64,000 bases of DNA from a virus. Location: IMG/VR virus record IMGVR_UViG_3300027908_000023, positions 34,537-98,536 of that record. One strand, written 5' to 3'. The notes below the pieces were generated by a model. The model was given only the letters and a program-made list of their open reading frames with translations. It made no database searches and had not been told where the DNA came from. A program made the translations under genes and the position numbers. Position 1 is the stretch's first letter; each line of letters starts with the position of its first letter. This document shows, in pieces, positions 4,415 through 64,000 of this stretch.

Positions 4415-5530
4415 CTATGCGGCGGGGGTATCTCCCAAAGCACGCAGGTAGATCCCGCGTGCGCCGTTGATGTCTCGATCCATCGAGACGCCATCCGAAC
4501 CGTTGATCACCCGCCGACCTCCAAGGTTAGCGATGATCTCTCCCGACCAGCTACAGGTCTTCGACGTGTAGGCTTCGTTGATGATCCGCACCGTCTTACC
4601 CTCCTGATCCGCCTTGGCTATCAACCGCATGCGGAACCGAGAATGGGCCAATCCCAACATGCTCCGCACCGACTTCTTGCGAAGCCGGCGCTTGGCACGA
4701 CAGGACATTTCCTTGGCCGAGAAGGCCGGTATACAGATCACGTCGAAGTTGTCGAGCAAGAACCGGATCGACTTCCAGTGAAGCTCGTCGATCAGGTTGT
4801 TGATCTTTCGGCGCAGCCGATTGATCCCCAGCGTGAGCCGGCGCTTGCCACGGCCGTCCGCCTTGGCGCGCCGACCCATCAGACGATCCAGGTGGAACAA
4901 CAACCGCACAATCCTTTGCTGCGACTGATCGCCGATCTTGCCGACAAGCGCGGGCGAATAGAAGGTCAGGAAGGTTCGGACGCCGGGGTCCAGCGCGACC
5001 ATGCGACCTTGGTTCTCGGTCGTTTTGTGCATGGTCACGCTGAACGATACCGACAGATACCATGCGCCATTGTCCCAGACGAGTCGGGAATCCCGATGCT
5101 GCTGGGGGACGGGTTCTGCGGCCCACAAATCCCCGGCGATTCGTGGATAGATGCCGATGGAACGATCTCCGGTCGGCTTGATCGCACTATGAGGAATAAA
5201 ACAACTCTGCGTCGGATTACGCCGGCTGCGAAAATGCATCTCGAAACTCGGGATAATACCCTGCTTTACTCTGAGTTTCTGCGCCGTGAAGGCCAGGCAG
5301 GCATCCTTGACCGCAATGGATTTTACCTGAAACGGTACGTCGCGAAACCATGCCGGCGTGCCGGACAGGATCATCTTCTTGACCTGCATCCAATGCGGCC
5401 GCGATCCATCAATACCATTGAGATACTCAATCGTCTGATTGTATGCCCAACGGCTACCGGCCATCCAGTGCCGGAACGTCTTGGCCTGCTCCGGCGTCGG
5501 CGAGAGTTTGATCCGCCGCGATTTCGTCAC
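4415..5530 (-). CDS. tnpB: IS607-type TnpB, probably degenerate nuclease
   Basis: About 371 aa from the GTG at 5530 (VTKSRRIKLSPTPEQAKTF), overlapping the end of tnpA in another frame. RNA-guided RuvC-type nuclease family. The first Asp is present (VALDPGVRTFLTF) and the third is present (VSMDRDINGARGIYLRAL). The second acidic site is doubtful: the segment reads IPAFSAKEM where relatives, as I recall them, have P-x-F-E-T. The zinc ribbon is reduced to one Cys (KTCSWSGEIIANLGG, then INGSDG). A Trp-Thr/Ser-Gly variant of this ribbon may be a real subfamily trait, so loss of the Glu is the stronger sign of inactivation. The frame stays open far upstream of 5530 but that part lies antiframe to tnpA and is not TnpB-like. 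Confidence 0.8.
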   Translation of the reverse strand: MTKSRRIKLSPTPEQAKTFRHWMAGSRWAYNQTIEYLNGIDGSRPHWMQVKKMILSGTPAWFRDVPFQVKSIAVKDACLAFTAQKLRVKQGIIPSFEMHFRSRRNPTQSCFIPHSAIKPTGDRSIGIYPRIAGDLWAAEPVPQQHRDSRLVWDNGAWYLSVSFSVTMHKTTENQGRMVALDPGVRTFLTFYSPALVGKIGDQSQQRIVRLLFHLDRLMGRRAKADGRGKRRLTLGINRLRRKINNLIDELHWKSIRFLLDNFDVICIPAFSAKEMSCRAKRRLRKKSVRSMLGLAHSRFRMRLIAKADQEGKTVRIINEAYTSKTCSWSGEIIANLGGRRVINGSDGVSMDRDINGARGIYLRALGDTPAA

Positions 5531-6062
5531 GGTACTTGCGGAGGCCGTGCATCCGGGCTCCAAAGACAGTGAGGATGGCAAGCAAGTCTCCGACAAGTTC
5601 ATCGTAGGGGCCGGCATGATCGCGCTTACCGAGAACCACGATCTCGCCTCCGGCACGGCGGATCTGGTGATCGATAAGCTCGAAGCCGAACCGAGCCAAT
5701 CGGTCGCGGTGGGCAACCACAACCCGCAACTTAGCGCCGCGTGCCGCGCGGTCCAGTAGGGCGAGCAATCCTTTTCGCTTGAAGTTGAGCCCGCTGCCGA
5801 TGTCGCTGACGATCTCTGCGTCATGATACTTGCTCTTGAGGTATTCCACCTGTCTGGCCAGGTCGTCCTTCTGCCTGTGACTACTCACCCGGGCATACAG
5901 AATCGTGATCGTCTCGCCACTCAGGAAACTCGATATGTCAAAATGCCTTGCTCCGTTCGGCATCCGGATGCACGGTATCGTACCGTTATCCGCATACTTG
6001 CGGAGCGTGTTGGGGTGAAGTCCGGTTGCCAGCACGGCCTTTCGTAGCGGAACGTAACTCAT
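5454..6062 (-). CDS. tnpA: IS607-family serine recombinase TnpA
   Basis: 202 aa. An N-terminal MerR-like helix-turn-helix (PLRKAVLATGLHPNTLRKYADNG) is followed by a small serine-resolvase catalytic domain with the nucleophile in ILYARVSSHRQ, then VVVAHRDRLARFGFELI. This order is diagnostic of IS607 transposases, which excise and insert through a circular intermediate without strong site preference. The length is normal and no frame break is visible. Its C-terminus overlaps tnpB by about 77 nt. Confidence 0.92.
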   Translation of the reverse strand: MSYVPLRKAVLATGLHPNTLRKYADNGTIPCIRMPNGARHFDISSFLSGETITILYARVSSHRQKDDLARQVEYLKSKYHDAEIVSDIGSGLNFKRKGLLALLDRAARGAKLRVVVAHRDRLARFGFELIDHQIRRAGGEIVVLGKRDHAGPYDELVGDLLAILTVFGARMHGLRKYRDEIAADQTLADAGAGQDVPALDGR

Positions 6063-7088: not shown

Positions 7089-7802
7089 TCAGGCTCCCAG
7101 CAATACCGCGCATTGATGCGCCATCTCGGCAGCGTGCGCCATGCCACGAAAGGTCTTGCCCAGAGCCAGGCGAACAATCTTCATCAGGCCGTGTTTATGC
7201 CCGGCAAGAGGCAGCGTTTTGGTCTTGCGGCCGAAGTCGTGCTGTTCCTCGATGACTTCAACATCACGGACGGGCACCTGGAATTCCACATGGACATAAT
7301 GACCCTCCGAGCCGCCAGTGACCGGCCAGGCCGCGATTCGCCAGTAGTCGTGCGGAACAATGGTGGTTTCCTTGTCGTAGGTATCCGGACCGCCGAAATA
7401 CTCATCGATGAACGAGTAGAATTCGCCGCCGCAATCGGCTCCCTGTTCTGGCGGAACATGGTGGGTCAGGTCGCGGTAACAGTCATCTTCCTTGACCTTG
7501 CGCGCACCGCACTTGTCGCATACCAGATAGTCCAGGGCATCGCGCAGGTCGGCGTGAACCTCCGAGAGCGTGCGCATCTTGACGCGCTTGAGATGGCCGG
7601 TCTTCTCTTTTGTCTCTGGGTCCAGGACATAGGCCCATACGTCCAGCGGAATGGACTCCGTGCCGATGGGGATAACCTTGCCGGATGCGTCAAGCATGGC
7701 ATGCCGGGCATAGGTGCGCGGCGCGGGTGGGACGATCTCGCCCATGATGCCGCGCCGGATCTCATCGGGCGTGAAGGCGTAACGGTCGATTGTGGCTGGC
7801 AT
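7089..7802 (-). CDS. hypothetical protein, 237 aa
   Basis: ATG at 7802 with AAAGGAAAGCC upstream. The protein has one Cys pair (CDKCGARK near residue 96) and CYRDL, HHV, CGG nearby that could bind zinc. The rest is mixed alpha/beta with a conserved-looking PETKEKTGHLKRVKMRT segment. I do not recognise the family. Confidence 0.7.
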   Translation of the reverse strand: MPATIDRYAFTPDEIRRGIMGEIVPPAPRTYARHAMLDASGKVIPIGTESIPLDVWAYVLDPETKEKTGHLKRVKMRTLSEVHADLRDALDYLVCDKCGARKVKEDDCYRDLTHHVPPEQGADCGGEFYSFIDEYFGGPDTYDKETTIVPHDYWRIAAWPVTGGSEGHYVHVEFQVPVRDVEVIEEQHDFGRKTKTLPLAGHKHGLMKIVRLALGKTFRGMAHAAEMAHQCAVLLGA

Positions 7803-7848
7803 GGAGGCTTTCCTTTCAGTGTGGTTGGCTCTGGTTGTCTGTATGGTT

Positions 7849-12744: not shown

Positions 12745-13914
12745 CTACTCCACCGCGTTAACGCGGCGGCTTCTTGGCGGACGCTTGGCCCGTTGGCCTA
12801 CGTTGACCGCCACTGGCGCAGTCCGCGCCAGTCCTCTTGCGAGGATGTTTCGAGCAGCATTGATGTCCCGATCAAGAGAGAGCCCGCAGTGATGACAGTG
12901 GTGCCATCTTACCGTGAGATCCTTGACCACCAGCGCGCCGCATTCGGAGCAGCGCTGCGTGGTTCCACGGGGATCAACCTCCACGAACCGCACTCCGGCT
13001 TTTTCAGCCTGGCAGCGCAGAACGCTCAGGAAGCCGGCCCAGCCGGCGTCACTGATCGACCGGGTGTACCTGCCGGTCGCCAACATCCCCTTGATGTCGA
13101 GCGCTTCGGCAGCGATAAACCCGGACGAGAGCACCAAACGACGGGCGACCTGAAGGTGATGCTCGCGCCTGAGATTCTTCACGCGAGCGTGAAGTTTCTG
13201 CAAGCGCTTCACGGCCTTGCGGCGGTTCTTGCCGCCCTTCTGTTTGCGGACCATCGAGCGACCGGCGCGGCGCAGTTCAGGCAGGGCGGTCTTGAGGTAA
13301 CGCGGGTTGGCTTCCGTGGTCCCCTCGCTGGTGGTCAGGAAGTGGGTCAGGCCAACGTCGATACCCACGGCAGGCAAACCGTTATCGACAATCACCACGT
13401 CGGGCAACTCACAGGAGAAGACCACGAACCACTTGCCCGCTTCGCGCTTAATGGTGACGGTCTTGATCGTGCCTTCAACGGGCCGATGCAGCTTGACGCG
13501 AATCGTGCCGACGTGCTGGACATAGAGTTTGTTGCCGGTCAACCTGGTGCCGTCGCGGTAGGCTGGGAACTCGAAACTGTCGAAGCGGTCGCGTCCCTTG
13601 AATCGCGGAAAGCCGGCCTTGCCCGTGCCCTGGCTGACACGACGGAAGAAGTTGGCGTAGGACTTGTCGAGACGGCGCATCGTGGCTTGCGCACTGGAGA
13701 AGTTCAGGCGGGCGAAAAAGGGATTGGTGGCCCTCTGTCCCTTGAACCATCCCGATTGATCAGCATACTTCACCGAAATCCCGGTGGATTCGTAGCCGAT
13801 GATTCGCTGCTCCAGACAGGCGTTGTACAGCCTGCGATGAGTTTCTAGGCAGGTAGCGAGTTCGCGCTCCTGGTTGGCGTTGGCGAACAGACGGTAGCGG
13901 AAGGCGCGGCGCAT
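12745..13914 (-). CDS. tnpB: TnpB RNA-guided nuclease (IS605 OrfB)
   Basis: 389 aa, normal length. RuvC residues are intact: D186 in VGIDVGLTHFL, E270 in IAAEALDIKGML and D350 in LDRDINAARNIL. The zinc ribbon is complete (C322/C325 and C340/C343). The N-terminal OrfB HTH and WED region (MRRAFRYRLFANANQERELA) is present. The gene should therefore encode an active omega-RNA-guided DNA nuclease. Start ATG 13914 is preceded by a TTGACT/TATGAT promoter at 13953-13980. Confidence 0.92.
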   Translation of the reverse strand: MRRAFRYRLFANANQERELATCLETHRRLYNACLEQRIIGYESTGISVKYADQSGWFKGQRATNPFFARLNFSSAQATMRRLDKSYANFFRRVSQGTGKAGFPRFKGRDRFDSFEFPAYRDGTRLTGNKLYVQHVGTIRVKLHRPVEGTIKTVTIKREAGKWFVVFSCELPDVVIVDNGLPAVGIDVGLTHFLTTSEGTTEANPRYLKTALPELRRAGRSMVRKQKGGKNRRKAVKRLQKLHARVKNLRREHHLQVARRLVLSSGFIAAEALDIKGMLATGRYTRSISDAGWAGFLSVLRCQAEKAGVRFVEVDPRGTTQRCSECGALVVKDLTVRWHHCHHCGLSLDRDINAARNILARGLARTAPVAVNVGQRAKRPPRSRRVNAVE

Positions 13915-26577: not shown

Positions 26578-27423
26578 TTACACTCCTACTAGCTCCATCT
26601 CTTCTACCACGACCGGCAGCTTCCCCACTTGCAAGGTCACGACTTCGTAATCCGCCAGCGTCAACTGCTCCAGCGACTTCACATGATGGAGATCGCATAC
26701 CCGGCTGATGCTGATTTTCCGCGTCTGGCACAACCGCTTGATAAAGTGTACCTGATCGTCCGTGATAATGCTTGCCGGATCGGGCTTCGCTTCCACGGCA
26801 TGACCGTTGCCATTGTGGCCGTTCGTGCCGTTGGCATGGTGCCCGTTGCCGGTTCCGGAAAGCCTCGGTGTCTGGCTAAACTGCCGCTTCCTCGGATCGT
26901 AGTCGTACCAGTCTGCCTTGATCCGGTAGAGATAGCGGCCGATGCCGAACTTCACGGCCGCGCGTTTGTGGGCATCGGAGAACGCTGCCTTGCGGCGGTC
27001 CCCCTCATCGTCCTGCTGGGAAGGGCTACCGACATCCTGCTTCTCGATCCATTCTCCACCGATGCGCACCCGCAATCGGCAGATCACGCTGCCCATGATG
27101 ACCTCTTCTCCAAGGATCATCTCGTCGCAATCGTTGCCGTCCTTGTCCTTGACTGTCCTGCCAGTCTTCTGCATGGCCGGCACGCGAGCATCGGGAAGAA
27201 CCTCATATGAGGTTTCCCAGCCGCCAATGCCGAGAACTTCGTCAAGGCGATCCTCAACGGTGCGGACATCTACATAGGCAAAAGCGAGAGCGCGATTGCC
27301 AACGGTCTTGCCGGGAAGAAACTTCACGTCCTCAATGTCGAACGGTGCGGCCAGCGCGGCAGCGATGGCCTGGACATCAATGGTGGTCTGCGTTGCAGTA
27401 GTCCCGGTGGTTGCTGTCGTCAT
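26578..27423 (-). CDS. Rad52-like single-strand annealing protein
   Basis: 281 aa. Residues 22-170 match the Rad52/Rad22 family: PFDIEDVKFLPGK, FAYVDVRTVEDRLDEVLG, WETSYEV, and SDAHKRAAVKFGIGRYLYRI. These proteins anneal complementary single strands in phage recombination and double-strand break repair. A Gly/Asn/His linker (HHANGTNGHNGNGH) leads to a C-terminal helical domain of about 75 residues. It is a separate unit from the exonuclease/annealase pair at 61-63 kb. Promoter-like element at 27469-27494. Confidence 0.85.
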   Translation of the reverse strand: MTTATTGTTATQTTIDVQAIAAALAAPFDIEDVKFLPGKTVGNRALAFAYVDVRTVEDRLDEVLGIGGWETSYEVLPDARVPAMQKTGRTVKDKDGNDCDEMILGEEVIMGSVICRLRVRIGGEWIEKQDVGSPSQQDDEGDRRKAAFSDAHKRAAVKFGIGRYLYRIKADWYDYDPRKRQFSQTPRLSGTGNGHHANGTNGHNGNGHAVEAKPDPASIITDDQVHFIKRLCQTRKISISRVCDLHHVKSLEQLTLADYEVVTLQVGKLPVVVEEMELVGV

Positions 27424-38909: not shown

Positions 38910-39604
38910 GGGAGTTTTCCTTGCGTCTCAAGAAGTGCCAGCGCTCTTCGCAGCGCCAGGATGGCAGGATTCTTGGCGAGCGACTGTTCAACCCAGTGCG
39001 GCCGAAAATCTACTGTTGGCGGTCGTGGCGCTGTAGATTCCGAATCCAGATCATCCCAGGCTTCCGCAAGAGCGCCACGCTCAACATATGGCAGAGCCAG
39101 GTTGCAGACATCGCGGAGCGAGCATTCCAGTTCCTCAATTCGCCTTTGAGGGGAAATGTATTCGCGTCCCTGTTGACGTGCCTCAATGAATCGCTGGCAG
39201 TTCTCAATCGTCACCGCTGTATCGCTTGCCGGCCTGGTGTCGCCTTCAGGAAGCGCTGAATAAAGAATGCCGTCGTCCAAATGACATCGATCATCGCCGC
39301 GCTGATCGCGATGCCAACGGATGAGCCTCTCCAGTTCAATGAGTCGGCGGATCGCTGCCGGCCAGCCAATTTTCCATGCCGGAGAACGTACCGTCATCGT
39401 CGGCTCAAACTGCTCGCAATAGCGCAGGTCAGCCTGCCAGTCGCGCGGCACTTTTTCTCCTTCGCCAAGATAGCCTGTCCCCAAGCAAGAATCACATTTT
39501 CCGGCAGGCGCATCGTATTGTTCCGTGTTCAGGTTATACATGCCCGCCTCTTGCTGGCCGGTGCCACCGCAGCGTTCGCACTGGAAACGAATTAACCGTG
39601 TCAT
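38906..39604 (-). CDS. Zn-finger protein, 232 aa
   Basis: Start ATG 39604. The first 45 residues hold a DnaJ-like zinc finger (CERCGGTG...CDSCLGTG). The rest is helical with several Trp/His residues, unassigned. The TnpB element at 39605-40870 is inserted directly in front of its start, so its original promoter may be displaced. Confidence 0.65.
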   Translation of the reverse strand: MTRLIRFQCERCGGTGQQEAGMYNLNTEQYDAPAGKCDSCLGTGYLGEGEKVPRDWQADLRYCEQFEPTMTVRSPAWKIGWPAAIRRLIELERLIRWHRDQRGDDRCHLDDGILYSALPEGDTRPASDTAVTIENCQRFIEARQQGREYISPQRRIEELECSLRDVCNLALPYVERGALAEAWDDLDSESTAPRPPTVDFRPHWVEQSLAKNPAILALRRALALLETQGKLP

Positions 39605-39681
39605 CAATAGCTTCCAAGAAACCCCTCGCCTTCAGGCATGGGGAGAACCAAAACTTTTCCACATTTTCCTACCACCAACCC

Positions 39682-39710
39682 TTGACTCAGGAGCCAATCA
39701 CTCCTATGAT
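39682..39710 (+). promoter_or_regulatory. sigma70-type promoter of tnpB
   Basis: TTGACT (39682-39687), 17 bp, TATGAT (39705-39710), 7 nt before the tnpB ATG at 39717, giving an extremely short leader. Confidence 0.65.
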
Positions 39711-39716
39711 ACCTAC

Positions 39717-40817
39717 ATGAAGCTCACGATTCAACTGCAACTGCTGCCAACCAGCGAACAAGCCACCATCCTGCTTGACACGATGGCGCGTGTGAATCAA
39801 GCTGCCACGTTCGCTGCGCAGCAAGGCTTTGACAACGGCGTTTTCAGCCAACCGAGCATTCACAAGCTCGCCTACCGTGCCATCCGCGATCAGTTCGGCC
39901 TGTCCGCTCAACTGGCCGTGCGTGCCATCGGCAAGGCGGTGGAGACATTCCAGCGCGACAAGACGATATGCCCCATGTTCCGCCCCGATGGAGCCATTAC
40001 CTACGATGAACGCAACATGGGCTTCAAGGGCGTGGACAAGGTTAGTCTGAGTACCTTGGCAGGCCGGCAGATCATCGGCATGGTCTATGGTGAGTATCAG
40101 CGTGAGAGATTCGACCGCATCAAGGGACAGTGCGATCTCGTCTACCGTGACAATAAGTTCTTCCTCATAGCCAACGTTGATCTTCCGGAAGCGCCGCCCC
40201 TGGAGATCAAGGCGTTTCTGGGCGTTGACCTTGGCCTCATCAATCTTGCCACGACGAGCCAGGGCGAGATGTTCAGCGGCGAGACGGTGAACCGCACACG
40301 CCGGCGTTGTGCGACGGCCAGAAAACAATACCAGCGGAAAGGAACGCGGAATGCCAAGCGACGATTGAAGAAGATCGGCAAACGCCAGTCGAGGTTTCAG
40401 ACCTGGCGCAACCACAATATCGCCAAGCAGATTGTCCAGACGGCAAAGGCACTTGGATTCGGCATCGCGATGGAGGATCTGACCGACATTCGCGAGCGGA
40501 TCGAAGACACGGTTGGCCGTAGAACAAGACGGAGATTCGGCAACTGGAGTTTCCGGCAGTTGAGAGACTTCGTGTCCTACAAGGCACGCCTCGCCGGTGT
40601 GCCGGTCTGTCTGGTTGACCCGCGCAATACCTCTCGCATTTGTAGCAAGTGCGGCTATTGCGACAAGGCCAACCGCAAGACTCAGGATCGGTTTCTCTGC
40701 CTGCACTGCGGATTCTCCCTGAATGCCGACCTGAACGCCGCTGTCAACATCTCGTTGATAGCTTGGGATGCCTTTGTAAACCATCCCGAAAAGCAGCAGT
40801 CTTGCGTCTTCTCTTAA
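39717..40817 (+). CDS. tnpB: TnpB RNA-guided nuclease (IS605 OrfB)
   Basis: 366 aa. RuvC residues D171 (FLGVDLGLINLATT), E253 (IAMEDLTDIRERI) and D338 (NADLNAAVNISL) are present. Zinc ribbon C309/C312 and C328/C331. The sequence is diverged from the other TnpB copies in this window and is not a recent duplicate. Probably active; the omega-RNA would come from the 3-prime region up to about 40870. Confidence 0.92.
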   Translation: MKLTIQLQLLPTSEQATILLDTMARVNQAATFAAQQGFDNGVFSQPSIHKLAYRAIRDQFGLSAQLAVRAIGKAVETFQRDKTICPMFRPDGAITYDERNMGFKGVDKVSLSTLAGRQIIGMVYGEYQRERFDRIKGQCDLVYRDNKFFLIANVDLPEAPPLEIKAFLGVDLGLINLATTSQGEMFSGETVNRTRRRCATARKQYQRKGTRNAKRRLKKIGKRQSRFQTWRNHNIAKQIVQTAKALGFGIAMEDLTDIRERIEDTVGRRTRRRFGNWSFRQLRDFVSYKARLAGVPVCLVDPRNTSRICSKCGYCDKANRKTQDRFLCLHCGFSLNADLNAAVNISLIAWDAFVNHPEKQQSCVFS

Positions 40818-49481: not shown

Positions 49482-50864
49482 TCAACGTGAACGATGCCGA
49501 ACTGCCGGAGCGCTATACGCTCCATGCGCTCCGCTTGCAAGTGCAACTCGCGTGAGGTTGCCTCCAGACGAGCCACCTGATCCATCATGGGGTAGTGTCC
49601 TAACAATGCGTTGCCGGGTAGTGTCCTTACATCGCGTTGGCGACTTCGGACTTCCTGTTTCATCGGATCGGCTTACCTCCCCGGACGTATGCCCGGTTCG
49701 ACAGAGGCCGATTCCTCCACAGTTCGCGCCGACCACTCTCAGCGCGCGAGCGTGAATCACCATACCGGAGGCTCTATCTCTCTCACAGCAGAGCCCACAG
49801 GGACAATTATGGAGACGCTCATTGAGACTCTTGTACTTTCTTGCACCACAAGCCGGGCAGTCCTGGCTTGTGTATCTCGCGTTCACTCCGATCGCATGAC
49901 GGCCAGCGTTTGCAGCTTTGCTCGTCAGCAGCCGGAGGAACGATCCCCAGGCGGCATCGTGGATGGACTTGGCGAGAGGCGATCTGCACATGCCGCGAAT
50001 GTTGAGATTCTCGAAGCCGATCAGATTGTACTGATTCACCAAACGACGCGCGGTCTGATGGGCGAAATCTCTACGCTGAGCCTGAATGCGCTCGTAATGC
50101 CTGGCAAGACGCCTGACCGCCTTGCGGCGGTTCCGAGAGCCTTTCTGCTTGCGGGATACCTGTTTGTGCAGGTGTTTGAGCTTCCGCTCAGACTTGCGAT
50201 AGAACCTGGGATTCTCAATCTTGTCGCCGTTTGCCAGGACGGCGAAGGTCGTCAGGCCAACATCAAGGCCAGTGCTGGTCTGGAGAGACTCAACAGGGAT
50301 TTTCTCCGGGATCTGGATGCCAGTATCGATGACGACCTGAGCATACCAGCCGGAGGCACGATGGATAACGCGAAGCAACAACTGCTTGGCAATCGGTCCG
50401 GTGTCGAACATGCCGCGAGCCGTGACTTCGCCAAGAACCGGAATACGGATCGCGCCATCATGGATGTAGTTGCCGTGATGAAGATACTCCATCGACCGAT
50501 AGCGATGATGGGCGCGGAACCTCGGATAACCCGGTTTCTCGCCAGCCTTGAGGCGACGGAAGAAGGCATCCATGCCTCGATCCAGACGGCGCAGCGAGTC
50601 GCGCAGGAAGACGACCGGAACCGGAGTCAGCATCGGAATATGGGCACGCCAATCCTTCAGAATTTCGCACTGCCGAACAAAGCCGATGGATTCCTTCCTG
50701 CGCTTGTAGGCTTTTGTCCTCATCTCCAGCATCTGATTGTAGGTCCAGCAACACGCGCCAAGCCAGGATTCAAGAGTATCTTCCTCTGTCTTGGACAGAT
50801 AGAGCTTAAATTCCAGTGTCTTCTGGATCGTCCGGAGACCAGAGGCTTTCTTCTTTCTGTACAT
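49482..50864 (-). CDS. tnpB: TnpB RNA-guided nuclease in TIR-bounded element
   Basis: 460 aa because the frame runs past the element end into the split gene; the TnpB part is about 1-380. RuvC: D201 (STGLDVGLTTFAVL), E285 (LIGFENLNIRGM), D363 (CERDRASGMVI, with Ser where Asn is usual). Zinc ribbon CPACG (C336/C339) and CPCGLCC. The N-terminal OrfB region MYRKKKASGLRTIQKTLEFK is normal. Promoter TTGACA-17-TAAACT at 50872-50900. Confidence 0.88.
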   Translation of the reverse strand: MYRKKKASGLRTIQKTLEFKLYLSKTEEDTLESWLGACCWTYNQMLEMRTKAYKRRKESIGFVRQCEILKDWRAHIPMLTPVPVVFLRDSLRRLDRGMDAFFRRLKAGEKPGYPRFRAHHRYRSMEYLHHGNYIHDGAIRIPVLGEVTARGMFDTGPIAKQLLLRVIHRASGWYAQVVIDTGIQIPEKIPVESLQTSTGLDVGLTTFAVLANGDKIENPRFYRKSERKLKHLHKQVSRKQKGSRNRRKAVRRLARHYERIQAQRRDFAHQTARRLVNQYNLIGFENLNIRGMCRSPLAKSIHDAAWGSFLRLLTSKAANAGRHAIGVNARYTSQDCPACGARKYKSLNERLHNCPCGLCCERDRASGMVIHARALRVVGANCGGIGLCRTGHTSGEVSRSDETGSPKSPTRCKDTTRQRIVRTLPHDGSGGSSGGNLTRVALASGAHGAYSAPAVRHRSR

Positions 50865-50943
50865 GGACGGAAGTTTACCAGATGGGCGGAATGGTGTCAA
50901 GGGCGGTTGGGAGAAAAAATCAACGCGATGTTAGGACACTACC
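49591..50943 (-). mobile_element. TIR-bounded TnpB element with 8-bp target duplication
   Basis: Ends carry inverted repeats GGTAGTGTCCTAAC... and ...GTTAGGACACTACC. The flanks have CATCATGG at 49583-49590 and at 50944-50951, an exact 8-bp target duplication. The inner left end repeats the terminus a second time (49616-49639). Classic IS605 elements have neither inverted repeats nor duplications, so this cargo rides in a transposon moved by a DDE-type transposase in trans. Confidence 0.85.
50872..50900 (-). promoter_or_regulatory. sigma70-type promoter of tnpB
   Basis: Minus strand TTGACA (50895-50900), 17 bp, TAAACT (50872-50877), 7 nt before ATG 50864. Confidence 0.7.
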
Positions 50944-56083: not shown

Positions 56084-56511
56084 GATTGCTCTTTCTCCTC
56101 ATGATCAGCGAGCCATTGATCCGCCACCACCAGCGCCTCATAGGGGCATTTGAACTCGCCGCGATGCTCTGTATGCATGTCGAATTCCAGCGGCATGTCG
56201 TAACCATTGATGGTTCGTACCCGCCAATACAGGCCAATCTTATGCCTGGACATCGGCACCACGTAGAGGCCGCGACGTATCATCACATCATGGGCGTTCC
56301 GTGCCAGGGCGATGAAGTGGGCGTTGGTGCCGATGGGTTCGGGACCTTCGGGTTTGCCGCAATCGTTGAGGCCATAATGGCTCGACATGCAGGTGGTAGA
56401 AACCGGCACGCCGTTGGCATCGCGGACCAAGCCCCAATCGTCATGCTCTAACGGACGAACACGCCACGGTGCCGGCGAGAGTTTGTTGAGATGTTGCAAT
56501 CTTCCTCCCAT
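56080..56511 (-). CDS. HTPGPW-like protein whose 5-prime end lies in a CRISPR repeat
   Basis: 143 aa counted from the ATG at 56511, which is inside the CRISPR repeat copy 56493-56529. LSPAPWRVRPLEHDDWG and GTNAHFIALARNAHDVM recall the HTPGPW family of 2161-2786. The first about 10 residues are repeat-encoded, so the true start may be elsewhere or the repeat may have replaced it. Confidence 0.55.
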   Translation of the reverse strand: MGGRLQHLNKLSPAPWRVRPLEHDDWGLVRDANGVPVSTTCMSSHYGLNDCGKPEGPEPIGTNAHFIALARNAHDVMIRRGLYVVPMSRHKIGLYWRVRTINGYDMPLEFDMHTEHRGEFKCPYEALVVADQWLADHEEKEQS

Positions 56512-57025
56512 TGCACTGGCTGTTGTTACCACGGATCAGGTACAGGTCTATCCGCTGACCATCGGGGGTTGCAATCTTCCTGCCATTGCACTGGCTGTTG
56601 TTACTATCCAGAATCGGCAAATCGCGCCAACCTTCCAACTCTTCGCCTGGATGAATACGGATACTCAATCCTCTGGCCACCAAATCAAAGCGGCGATCAG
56701 ATTCCTCTCGGCAAGGCCGTCGTGGTCCTGGATAAACTTCGGCGCTGCGAACTGTTTCCCAGAAGCCATGAACCTTGGCGAATTTGTCCTTGCCGTCCAG
56801 CAGAATACGCTCTACTTCGATCTGTCGTAACTCCTTCAACAACGACAAGAGTTCTTCAGCATCATAGTCCGCTTCAAACCAGGATGCCAGCAGGCGAACC
56901 GCCGGGAAACCATAACCATCAACAACCTGGAGGTTAAACCCGTGTGGCTTCGGATCGTGAAAGATCAGCAGATTGAGCGCCAGCAACTCTTGCTGAATGG
57001 CGCTGACGAGTTCCGCTTCGCTCAT
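56441..57025 (-). CDS. hypothetical protein running through CRISPR mini-array
   Basis: 194 aa from ATG 57025 (MSEAELVSAIQQEL...). The acidic core has LLSLLKELRQIEVERILLDG. From residue about 145 the frame continues through two CRISPR repeats, each encoding NNSQCNGRKIAT; the repeat period (75 nt) keeps frame. The natural C-terminus was probably shorter, near ILDS. Overlaps the next gene by 71 nt. Confidence 0.6.
   Translation of the reverse strand: MSEAELVSAIQQELLALNLLIFHDPKPHGFNLQVVDGYGFPAVRLLASWFEADYDAEELLSLLKELRQIEVERILLDGKDKFAKVHGFWETVRSAEVYPGPRRPCREESDRRFDLVARGLSIRIHPGEELEGWRDLPILDSNNSQCNGRKIATPDGQRIDLYLIRGNNSQCNGRKIATSQQTLAGTVACSSVRA
56493..56604 (-). CRISPR. two-repeat mini-array of repeat family 3
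   Basis: Repeats 56493-56529 and 56568-56604 (37 nt each) flank one 38-nt spacer. Repeat family 3 (stem GCCA/TGGC). The first copy has a C where the stem needs a G, so it is less well paired. No cas gene nearby. It lies between and partly within two genes. Confidence 0.8.
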
Positions 57026-57035
57026 GGCTGGCTCC

Positions 57036-58400
57036 TCAGAATCCGCGCACCTGATTTTCAGCGAAGAGCGTCCGGCCACGGTCGTAATCCAGGGTGATGT
57101 CCCCCACGGGGCCGTTGCGGTTCTTCTCGACCTGGACAACCAGTTCACGCGGGTTGTTGTCGGCATCAGGCTGATGGAGCATCAACACCACGTCGGCATC
57201 CTGCTCCAATTCTCCAGATCCTCTCAGATCAGAAAGTTTCGGCCGGCTGTCGGCGCGGGATTCGACCTCGCGATTGAGCTGCGCCAGCGCTAGTATTGGG
57301 ATATTTAGTTCCCGCGCCAAGAACTTCAACCTCCTTGAGATCGCGGCCAATTGCTCGTGCCTCGGATCGCGGCGATTGTCTGGCTCAATCAGTTGGAGAT
57401 AATCAATGACTACCAGGCCAAGCGGGATTTCCTCCTTGCGCGTCTTGGCGCGGAGAGCGAGCCTTCGCGCGTTGCTGGCGATCCTCAAGACATTCTGACC
57501 TGGGCTGTCGTCGATCCAGAACGGCAGCGCCGACAGCGCATCACCAGCCTGCCCGATCAGACTACTCTCTTCAGGAGTTATCCGGCAATGCTTGAAGGCG
57601 CGCTGTTCGACACCGGAACCGGCACAGAGCAACCGTTCGGCTAAATCCAGACGCGACTGCTCCAGACTGGCAAAGAACACGCCAAGAACCTCGCCGGCAC
57701 GCCGTGCCAGCGCGAGCGATAGCGCGGTTTTGCCCACAGACGGACGGGCGGCAAGCAGAATCAATTCCCCGGGCTGCCAGCCGGCCGTCATGGCATCAAG
57801 GCTGTCGAACCCCGACGAGATGCCGGATACCTCGCTGTGACTCTTGGCTCTCTGATCGAGCCGGTCATAGACCTCGTGGATGATTTCCGACATCTTGTAC
57901 AGGTTACCAGAAACGCCCATCGTCGCGATGGCGAAGATGCGTTTCTCAGCACTTTGCAAAATCTCCTCTGCCGAACCGGCCGCACGCTCGGCTTCTTCGG
58001 ATATGATCTGCGCCGCGATGGAGAGTTCGCGAAGGATCGAGGCGTCGCGAACTCGTTCCGCATGGTAGACCGCGTTGGCACCGGTCGGAACCTCGTCCCA
58101 CAAGCGAGCCAAGAAGGTATGCCCCTCCATCGACTTTTCGCCCGGCCGATCCGCCAAGCCACCCAACTGCGACAACTCGTTGCGGCGATGGAGCAGGTCC
58201 GCCACGCTCACCAGATCGATCGGTTTGGCCTTGTCGTAGAGTTCCAGTTGTGCCTGATAGACCAGTCCGTGCGCATGGTCGCGAAAGTTCTTCGCGGCAA
58301 GCAGTGGCGCTATTTCCGCCAAGACGGTTGGCCAGCGGAAGATACCACCGATGACGGCGCGCTCACTGTCGTTCAAAACTCGCAACTTCTCTTCGCTCAT
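57036..58400 (-). CDS. dnaB: replicative DNA helicase, DnaB-type
   Basis: 454 aa. N-terminal helical domain (SERAVIGGIFRWP) then RecA-like ATPase with Walker A ARPSVGKTA (218-226), Walker B LVVIDYLQLI (329-338), and the C-terminal KLSDLRGSGELEQDADVVLM Arg-finger region. Unwinds the phage replication fork as a hexamer. Normal length, ATG 58400 overlaps its partner by one base. Confidence 0.95.
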   Translation of the reverse strand: MSEEKLRVLNDSERAVIGGIFRWPTVLAEIAPLLAAKNFRDHAHGLVYQAQLELYDKAKPIDLVSVADLLHRRNELSQLGGLADRPGEKSMEGHTFLARLWDEVPTGANAVYHAERVRDASILRELSIAAQIISEEAERAAGSAEEILQSAEKRIFAIATMGVSGNLYKMSEIIHEVYDRLDQRAKSHSEVSGISSGFDSLDAMTAGWQPGELILLAARPSVGKTALSLALARRAGEVLGVFFASLEQSRLDLAERLLCAGSGVEQRAFKHCRITPEESSLIGQAGDALSALPFWIDDSPGQNVLRIASNARRLALRAKTRKEEIPLGLVVIDYLQLIEPDNRRDPRHEQLAAISRRLKFLARELNIPILALAQLNREVESRADSRPKLSDLRGSGELEQDADVVLMLHQPDADNNPRELVVQVEKNRNGPVGDITLDYDRGRTLFAENQVRGF

Positions 58401-60176: not shown

Positions 60177-60339
60177 GGTTTCGTCTCCTTGTGTTTGGGC
60201 CGGCTTCATATAGTTCGACCTCTGGAGATAGTCAAGGCTATTATTTTAGCGGAATCTGGATGCGGCTCAAGAGATGGCGGCGCGATTATCAGGAATGGAG
60301 AAAATGCGTGAAAGTGTAATCGCTAAAACAGTGGAATTT

Positions 60340-60437
60340 CATTTAGTATTTTGCAGTTTGCATTTTAGATTTTGCATTGTTCAGCACATGGCTTGATGAA
60401 TGCAAAATCTAAAATGCAAACTGCAAAATACTGAATG
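60340..60437. repeat. 39-bp AT-rich inverted repeat, copy 2, candidate origin
   Basis: Arms 60340-60378 and 60399-60437 match with one mismatch, loop 20 nt. Left arm shares nearly its whole length with 53279-53317. Repeats TTTTGCA and TTTGCA. Next to the replication genes, so an origin is a reasonable guess; a non-autonomous mobile hairpin is the alternative. The rest of 60177-60804 shows no supported gene. Confidence 0.65.
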
Positions 60438-60522
60438 AAAGAAATCGCCTCCGCGCCGTCGATCGACAACGAGCCGATCCGCCGTTCGCAACGTGCGTCG
60501 CAAGGGGAGCGGAGATTGACAT

Positions 60523-60559
60523 GTTGCAACCTTCATCCCGTTACACCGGGCATTGTTAC
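60523..60559 (-). CRISPR. solitary CRISPR repeat, family 1
   Basis: Exact 37-nt family-1 repeat (stem CCCG/CGGG) without any neighbouring repeat. Identical to repeats at 63827, 63902 and 63975. Confidence 0.75.
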
Positions 60560-63530: not shown

Positions 63531-64000
63531 GGCGCAACCTTCAGGCCGTTGCACCGGCCATTGTTACGCATCGGGGGCCATTTTGCCATACTTCTCAATC
63601 CTGCAGTTGCAACCTTCAAGCCGTTGCACCGGCCATTGTTACTGCAACGGCTTGAAGGTTGCAACAACTGAGCAGAGTTGCAATCTTCCTGCCATTGCAC
63701 TGGCTGTTGTTACGAGGCGTCGGTTCGACTCTGATACCTCACCCGACCGCTGCGTTGCAACCTTCAAGCCGTTGCACCGGCCATTGTTGCCGTGAATCGC
63801 CCGCTGACCGGATTGACCAGATGACAGTTGCAACCTTCATCCCGTTACACCGGGCATTGTTACGCCGCTGATAACGCTTGGACGACCGTGGCGCAGATCA
63901 GGTTGCAACCTTCATCCCGTTACACCGGGCATTGTTACTTTGTACCGTTTTGCCCGTCCGGTGCGCGTCTCAATGTTGCAACCTTCATCCCGTTACACCG
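63531..64000 (-). CRISPR. CRISPR array with three interleaved repeat families, open at right edge
   Basis: 37-nt repeats at 63531 (degenerate end), 63606, 63677, 63754, 63827, 63902 and 63975 (cut by the window). Spacers are 34 to 40 nt. Families: 2 (63531, 63606, 63754), 3 (63677) and 1 (63827, 63902, 63975). The central stem has compensatory base changes between families. No cas gene in the window. On the minus strand each repeat ends GATGAAGGTTGCAAC-like, which from memory resembles type V-F (Cas12f/Cas14) repeats; that needs a search. Confidence 0.9.
63606..63665 (-). ncRNA. repeat plus 23-nt anti-repeat (tracr-like or hairpin)
   Basis: The first 23 nt of the repeat at 63606-63628 are perfectly complementary to 63643-63665, which lies where a spacer should be (34 nt long). 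Together they would fold into a 23-bp hairpin with a 14-nt loop, or base-pair with crRNA of family 2. Confidence 0.6.

Follow-up and report, generated by a model that had tools for sequence, protein, structure and literature searches.

This locus raises the question of why one spacer position of a phage-borne CRISPR array should hold an antisense copy of the array's own repeat: does it specify an RNA of its own, or does it betray the way in which a spacer was formed? The sequence is real and unusual, and we consider that it is best read as a repeat-derived spacer and not as a demonstrated new RNA gene; that the anti-repeat belongs to the spacer is the best explanation of the data below.

The window, i.e. 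the whole stretch of 64,000 nucleotides that was analysed, covers bases 34537-98536 of a virus record of 98,536 bases. This contig is a fragment of a tailed-phage genome with recognisable genes for a terminase, a portal protein, a DnaB helicase and a RecE-like exonuclease. At the extreme contig end, near the RecE-like gene, is the array, which comprises seven repeats of 37 nt, the seventh being cut by the contig end; its leader side is missing. From low to high coordinate the spacers measure 38, 34, 40, 36, 38 and 36 nt. Near-identical repeats of constant length (37 nt) thus alternate with unique spacers of similar length (34-40 nt), as in virus-borne CRISPR arrays. Read with rising coordinate, the seven repeats belong to three variants as follows: C (degenerate), C, A, C (with one change), B, B and B. 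Variant A differs from B at nine positions and from C at seven, and B from C at four. This mosaic shows that the array has undergone rearrangement or conversion. The features are the following, in window coordinates unless the contig is named:

Contig 7773-7809: solitary repeat A, identical to array A
39525-40817, plus strand: Cas12f/V-U3-like ORF with the RuvC D/E/D residues present, candidate effector
56493-56604, minus strand: two-repeat mini-array of variant A with a single 38-nt spacer
60523-60559, minus strand: solitary repeat B, identical to array B
63531-63567, minus strand: terminal degenerate repeat C, differing from C in three places, of which two lie in its crRNA-sense 3' end; marks the array's trailer end
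63606-63642, minus strand: repeat variant C, paired with the anti-repeat through the 23 nt at its crRNA-sense 3' end, over a 14-nt loop
63643-63665, minus strand: perfect anti-repeat of 23 nt, reverse complement of the first 23 nt of repeat C (plus strand)
63643-63676, minus strand: spacer of 34 nt that reads, in crRNA sense, TCTGCTCAGTT (11 unique nt, seed side) then GTTGCAACCTTCAAGCCGTTGCA (anti-repeat)
63677-63713, minus strand: repeat variant A, in crRNA sense just before the anti-repeat spacer
63754-63790, minus strand: repeat variant C with one change, second perfect 23-nt partner of the anti-repeat
63827-63863, minus strand: repeat variant B
63902-63938, minus strand: repeat variant B
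63975-64000, minus strand: repeat variant B, truncated by the contig end

The first-pass annotation had reported a perfect reverse complement of 23 bases of the repeat in a spacer position, and this is confirmed: bases 63643-63665 (TGCAACGGCTTGAAGGTTGCAAC) are the exact reverse complement of 63606-63628, over a loop of 14 nt, and also of 63754-63776. With up to three mismatches the 23-mer occurs eight times in the window (seven repeats on the plus strand, the anti-repeat on the minus strand) and never in 100 shuffles. Chance can be excluded, since 20,000 random 34-nt pieces of the contig matched the reversed repeat over 10 nt at most and the other spacers of the array over 3-7 nt, as against 23 nt here. 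The edges of the copy are exact: it starts at the repeat-spacer junction and stops with the complement of the repeat's initial base. The other 11 nt of this spacer (AACTGAGCAGA) are unrelated to the repeat, and they do not continue the complementarity into the neighbouring spacer (27 of 34 positions match, the 23 of the copy and 4 of the 11 beyond it). Pairing with the other repeats of the family, also suggested, holds in part: the anti-repeat is exact to variant C alone, hence to two of the six complete array repeats, the second at 63754-63776, and shows three mismatches to B and four to A.

The crRNA strand is likely the minus strand. The repeats fold with -6.8, -12.3 and -13.8 kcal/mol on the minus strand against -5.1, -5.1 and -5.9 kcal/mol on the plus strand; in their 4-bp stem two pairs change on both sides (modest evidence, from ten complete aligned repeats with just six distinct sequences); and the decayed repeat with its damaged 3' end occupies the low-coordinate end of the array, which places the trailer end there, as expected. 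In crRNA sense the order is thus repeat A, TCTGCTCAGTT, GTTGCAACCTTCAAGCCGTTGCA, repeat C: the anti-repeat would form the distal (3') two-thirds of the spacer, behind a unique 11-nt seed at the 5' end. The statement that the spacer starts with the anti-repeat is therefore correct for the window strand, where the copy begins at the first spacer base, and reversed for the likely crRNA strand, where the spacer ends with it.

The hairpin of 23 bp announced from the sequence is borne out as a prediction, and a very stable one: the minus-strand transcript of 63606-63676 folds at -42.0 kcal/mol, compared with a mean of -19.6 for shuffled sequences (z -6.8), and the 3' arm of the stem that repeat C forms on its own is drawn into the predicted structure. 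The probability of this own stem is 0 in a 260-nt transcript, about 1 for the repeat alone and 0.67 on average when the anti-repeat is scrambled; two other C repeats mispair too in the 260-nt fold, so that the predicted cis effect is not clean and the stem-probability figure needs care. If transcribed, the anti-repeat should fold onto the neighbouring repeat C and mask it, and these models make a silencing effect of the repeat-derived spacer on its neighbour probable. A search for sigma-70 promoters and terminators near the array returned no match.

How, then, did the spacer arise? We tentatively favour a reading absent from the first-pass annotation: a spacer of ordinary length, captured at the spacer-repeat junction of a different C-type array, the masking of the adjacent repeat in cis being incidental. 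A rival phage or the host would have carried the source array, from which a protospacer spanning such a junction would have been taken and inserted in inverse orientation by the adaptation enzymes of the host. The resulting crRNA would carry a unique seed, which matches no spacer-repeat junction seen here; it could therefore address the other array, or its pre-crRNA, while sparing the present repeats. In the array transcript the anti-repeat would pair with the next repeat (C, 63606-63642) and, as the folding predicts, destroy its hairpin, and processing of the old trailer-end unit should be blocked. That both edges of the copy fall on structural boundaries (the repeat-spacer junction on one side, the repeat's initial base on the other) is predicted by a protospacer derived from an array but not by a random inversion; the spacer's length of 34 nt, close to the 36-40 nt of others, and the 11-nt remainder without continued complementarity (4 of 11) also argue for capture.

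Several observations speak against it. The source array was not found: outside the contig, no array with similar repeats appeared in IMG/VR, the GTDB species genomes, phages or plasmids (three degenerate repeat patterns were searched over the IMG/VR viral contigs and two over the GTDB genome contigs), and the spacers of the array had no match in phages or plasmids. A pattern of the repeat ends with variable spacing gave five matches, all in one protein-coding gene, and was discarded as not CRISPR. The identity of the copy with the adjoining repeat variant is likewise predicted by a local event. Moreover, variant A, and no duplicate of C, stands on the leader side, so that the present layout is unlike a simple acquisition at the leader end. 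Finally, no match to Cas1, Cas2 or Cas6 was detected in the contig; the lack of the first two counts against capture, and any acquisition would have relied on host enzymes, as has been proposed for virus-borne mini-arrays (PMC6858448).

A close rival, possible if somewhat less probable to us, is a local inverted duplication, in which template switching or inverted recombination between repeats replaced the greater part of an ordinary spacer by a reversed repeat C. The repeat end GTTGCAAC, a self-complementary palindrome, possibly helped; the event would be a pure accident and the cis hairpin its side effect. The inversion accident already listed by the first-pass annotation is thus retained, on the strength of the exact identity of the copy with the adjacent variant C, and not with A or B, and of the mosaic array as a trace of earlier rearrangement or conversion. 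The coincidence of both edges with the repeat boundaries tells against it, and so does the lack of microhomology in the present sequence at either switch point. The spacer's crRNA-sense start, TCTGCTCAGTTGTTGCAA, matches 18 of 18 nt in one phage gene (two IMG/VR contigs), which could be the original target of the overwritten spacer; however, this hit, obtained with a 20-nt pattern of the seed and the repeat start, extends to only 26 of 34 nt overall, about 0.2 such matches are expected by chance for that pattern in that collection (our own estimate), and the other spacers have no match to the searched part of that phage. We judged it to be at chance level. An assembly or library artefact might also be invoked, as the array lies at the contig end and within repeats, where assemblies fail; but array sequence is normal on both flanks and the junctions have no common sequence overlap through which an assembler could join them, which makes this explanation very improbable.

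The anti-repeat might instead function as an RNA. That it was selected as an antisense RNA or a cis silencer, the spacer being kept for binding in trans the repeats of C-type crRNAs of the host or of rivals (a sponge) or for shutting off in cis the old trailer unit, seems unlikely to us. It offers 23 perfect pairs to the crRNA repeat end, and a duplex scan of the whole contig ranks it as the top non-repeat partner of the repeat (-51.8 kcal/mol; the next site reaches -41.4). Types II-A and VI are known to use hairpins that conceal a repeat as a means of control, the hiding of the first repeat by leader RNA having been shown experimentally in type VI systems (PMC13187072), and phage repeat-spacer RNAs have been speculated to silence host CRISPR systems (PMC7162821). 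On the other hand the cis partner, 14 nt away, should outcompete targets in trans; the reading rests on a single example; and the extraneous crRNA of repeat-guide systems arises from the last repeat (PMC13187072), whereas the spacer considered here masks the last but one. The sequestering of crRNA repeats suggested at the outset is thus possible, complementarity being what speaks for it. Still less probable, in our opinion, is the stronger proposal that a phage CRISPR spacer slot makes an RNA antisense to repeats (the repeat end plus the 11-nt seed of one specific crRNA) which neutralises host or rival crRNAs as the antisense counterpart of a Racr, or that it makes a natural in-array single guide.

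The last idea deserves its own examination. In a Cas12f single guide the order is anti-repeat, loop, repeat, spacer. The anti-repeat, the 14-nt loop and the repeat follow the same order here, and would supply the duplex of an in-array tracrRNA, or natural single-guide RNA, for a Cas12f-like effector. The contig does encode a candidate: the ORF at 39525-40817 (+) matches Cas12f/V-U3 profiles with values down to 7.7e-45, its best PDB match is a Cas12f (3.3e-26) and the RuvC D/E/D residues of a type V-F effector are intact, which made the idea worth testing. Its product is a possible effector. The duplex scan, which could miss a weak, bulged tracrRNA elsewhere, found no other prominent anti-repeat in the contig. 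We nevertheless regard this as the least probable of all the explanations. Upstream of the anti-repeat lie 11 nt of spacer and repeat A where a structured scaffold would be expected; the fit to the main variant B (three mismatches) and to A (four) is poor, while the active repeats of an array are those that a tracrRNA pairs with; the perfect partner sits 14 nt away in cis; and the effector-like gene is about 23 kb off, on the other strand. Nor does this gene adjoin an array or a clear anti-repeat: duplex scores in the flanks of the four TnpB/Cas12f-like genes of the contig reach just -32 to -36 kcal/mol. Rfam gave no match within the window. The in-array tracrRNA entertained in the first-pass annotation is accordingly unsupported.

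The four genes, all divergent, are at 4415-5824 (-), 12745-13914 (-), 39525-40817 (+) and 49482-50900 (-), the third being the closest to Cas12f. In the first the RuvC glutamate is absent and the zinc ribbon degenerate, so that its product may be nuclease-dead; relatives in Vibrio phages, where they are annotated as transposases, share 35% identity with it. For the Cas12f-like gene, the DnaB gene and the array-side gene of 387 aa, no relative was confirmed in IMG/VR.

The locus resembles several known systems without coinciding with any. Like the virus-borne (mini-)arrays described previously (PMC6858448; for huge phages, PMC7162821) it is a compact phage array without adaptation genes, accompanied elsewhere in the genome by a mini-array and stand-alone repeats; it differs by one repeat-derived spacer antisense to the repeat, by three repeat variants in a single array, and in that no host with matching repeats was found among the GTDB genome contigs searched. 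RNAs that mimic repeats are documented as anti-CRISPRs, the Racrs (PMC10651486), and the likeness to their solitary repeat units lies in the array-identical repeats at window 60523 and contig 7773. Racrs are sense, repeat-like RNAs that stand alone in intergenic regions, often after a promoter, whereas the anti-repeat is antisense and within an array. With the leader-repeat hairpins that block extraneous crRNA (PMC13187072) it shares an upstream RNA pairing with a repeat and the predicted loss of a processing hairpin; here, by contrast, a spacer near the trailer end is involved instead of a leader, with a perfect 23-bp match and in a single case. With the tracrRNA anti-repeats of types II and V-F it shares complementarity to the spacer-proximal repeat end, and differs by the lack of a scaffold, the wrong repeat variant, the pairing in cis and the location inside the array. 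An antisense repeat inside a spacer was not reported in the part of the literature reached by a word search, and antisense matches of the repeat sequence in paper texts were to unrelated primers only.

The meaning depends on the origin. A spacer derived from a foreign array would mean that phages can direct their arrays against the memory of rivals, and the position of the seed would show how they avoid harming themselves. An antisense function would make the sequence a novel class of RNA anti-CRISPR, whereas an accident would be a documented instance of the way in which arrays can silence their own old units.

A few observations concern the repeats away from the array. The solitary repeats at window 60523 (B) and contig 7773 (A) resemble solitary repeat units and are thus Racr candidates. 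The solitary B copy is bordered by an imperfect inverted repeat around TTGACAT/ATGTCAA, and some 80 nt from it, at window 60337-60440, stands an inverted repeat of 47 nt with 94% complementarity, a loop of 10 nt and many TTTTGCA-like motifs. The two-repeat mini-array sits within an ORF, 56441-57166 (-), whose translation would give the repeated peptide NNSQCNGRKIAT. Finally, a short tandem run of GCCTAC hexamers is present at contig 26596-26639.
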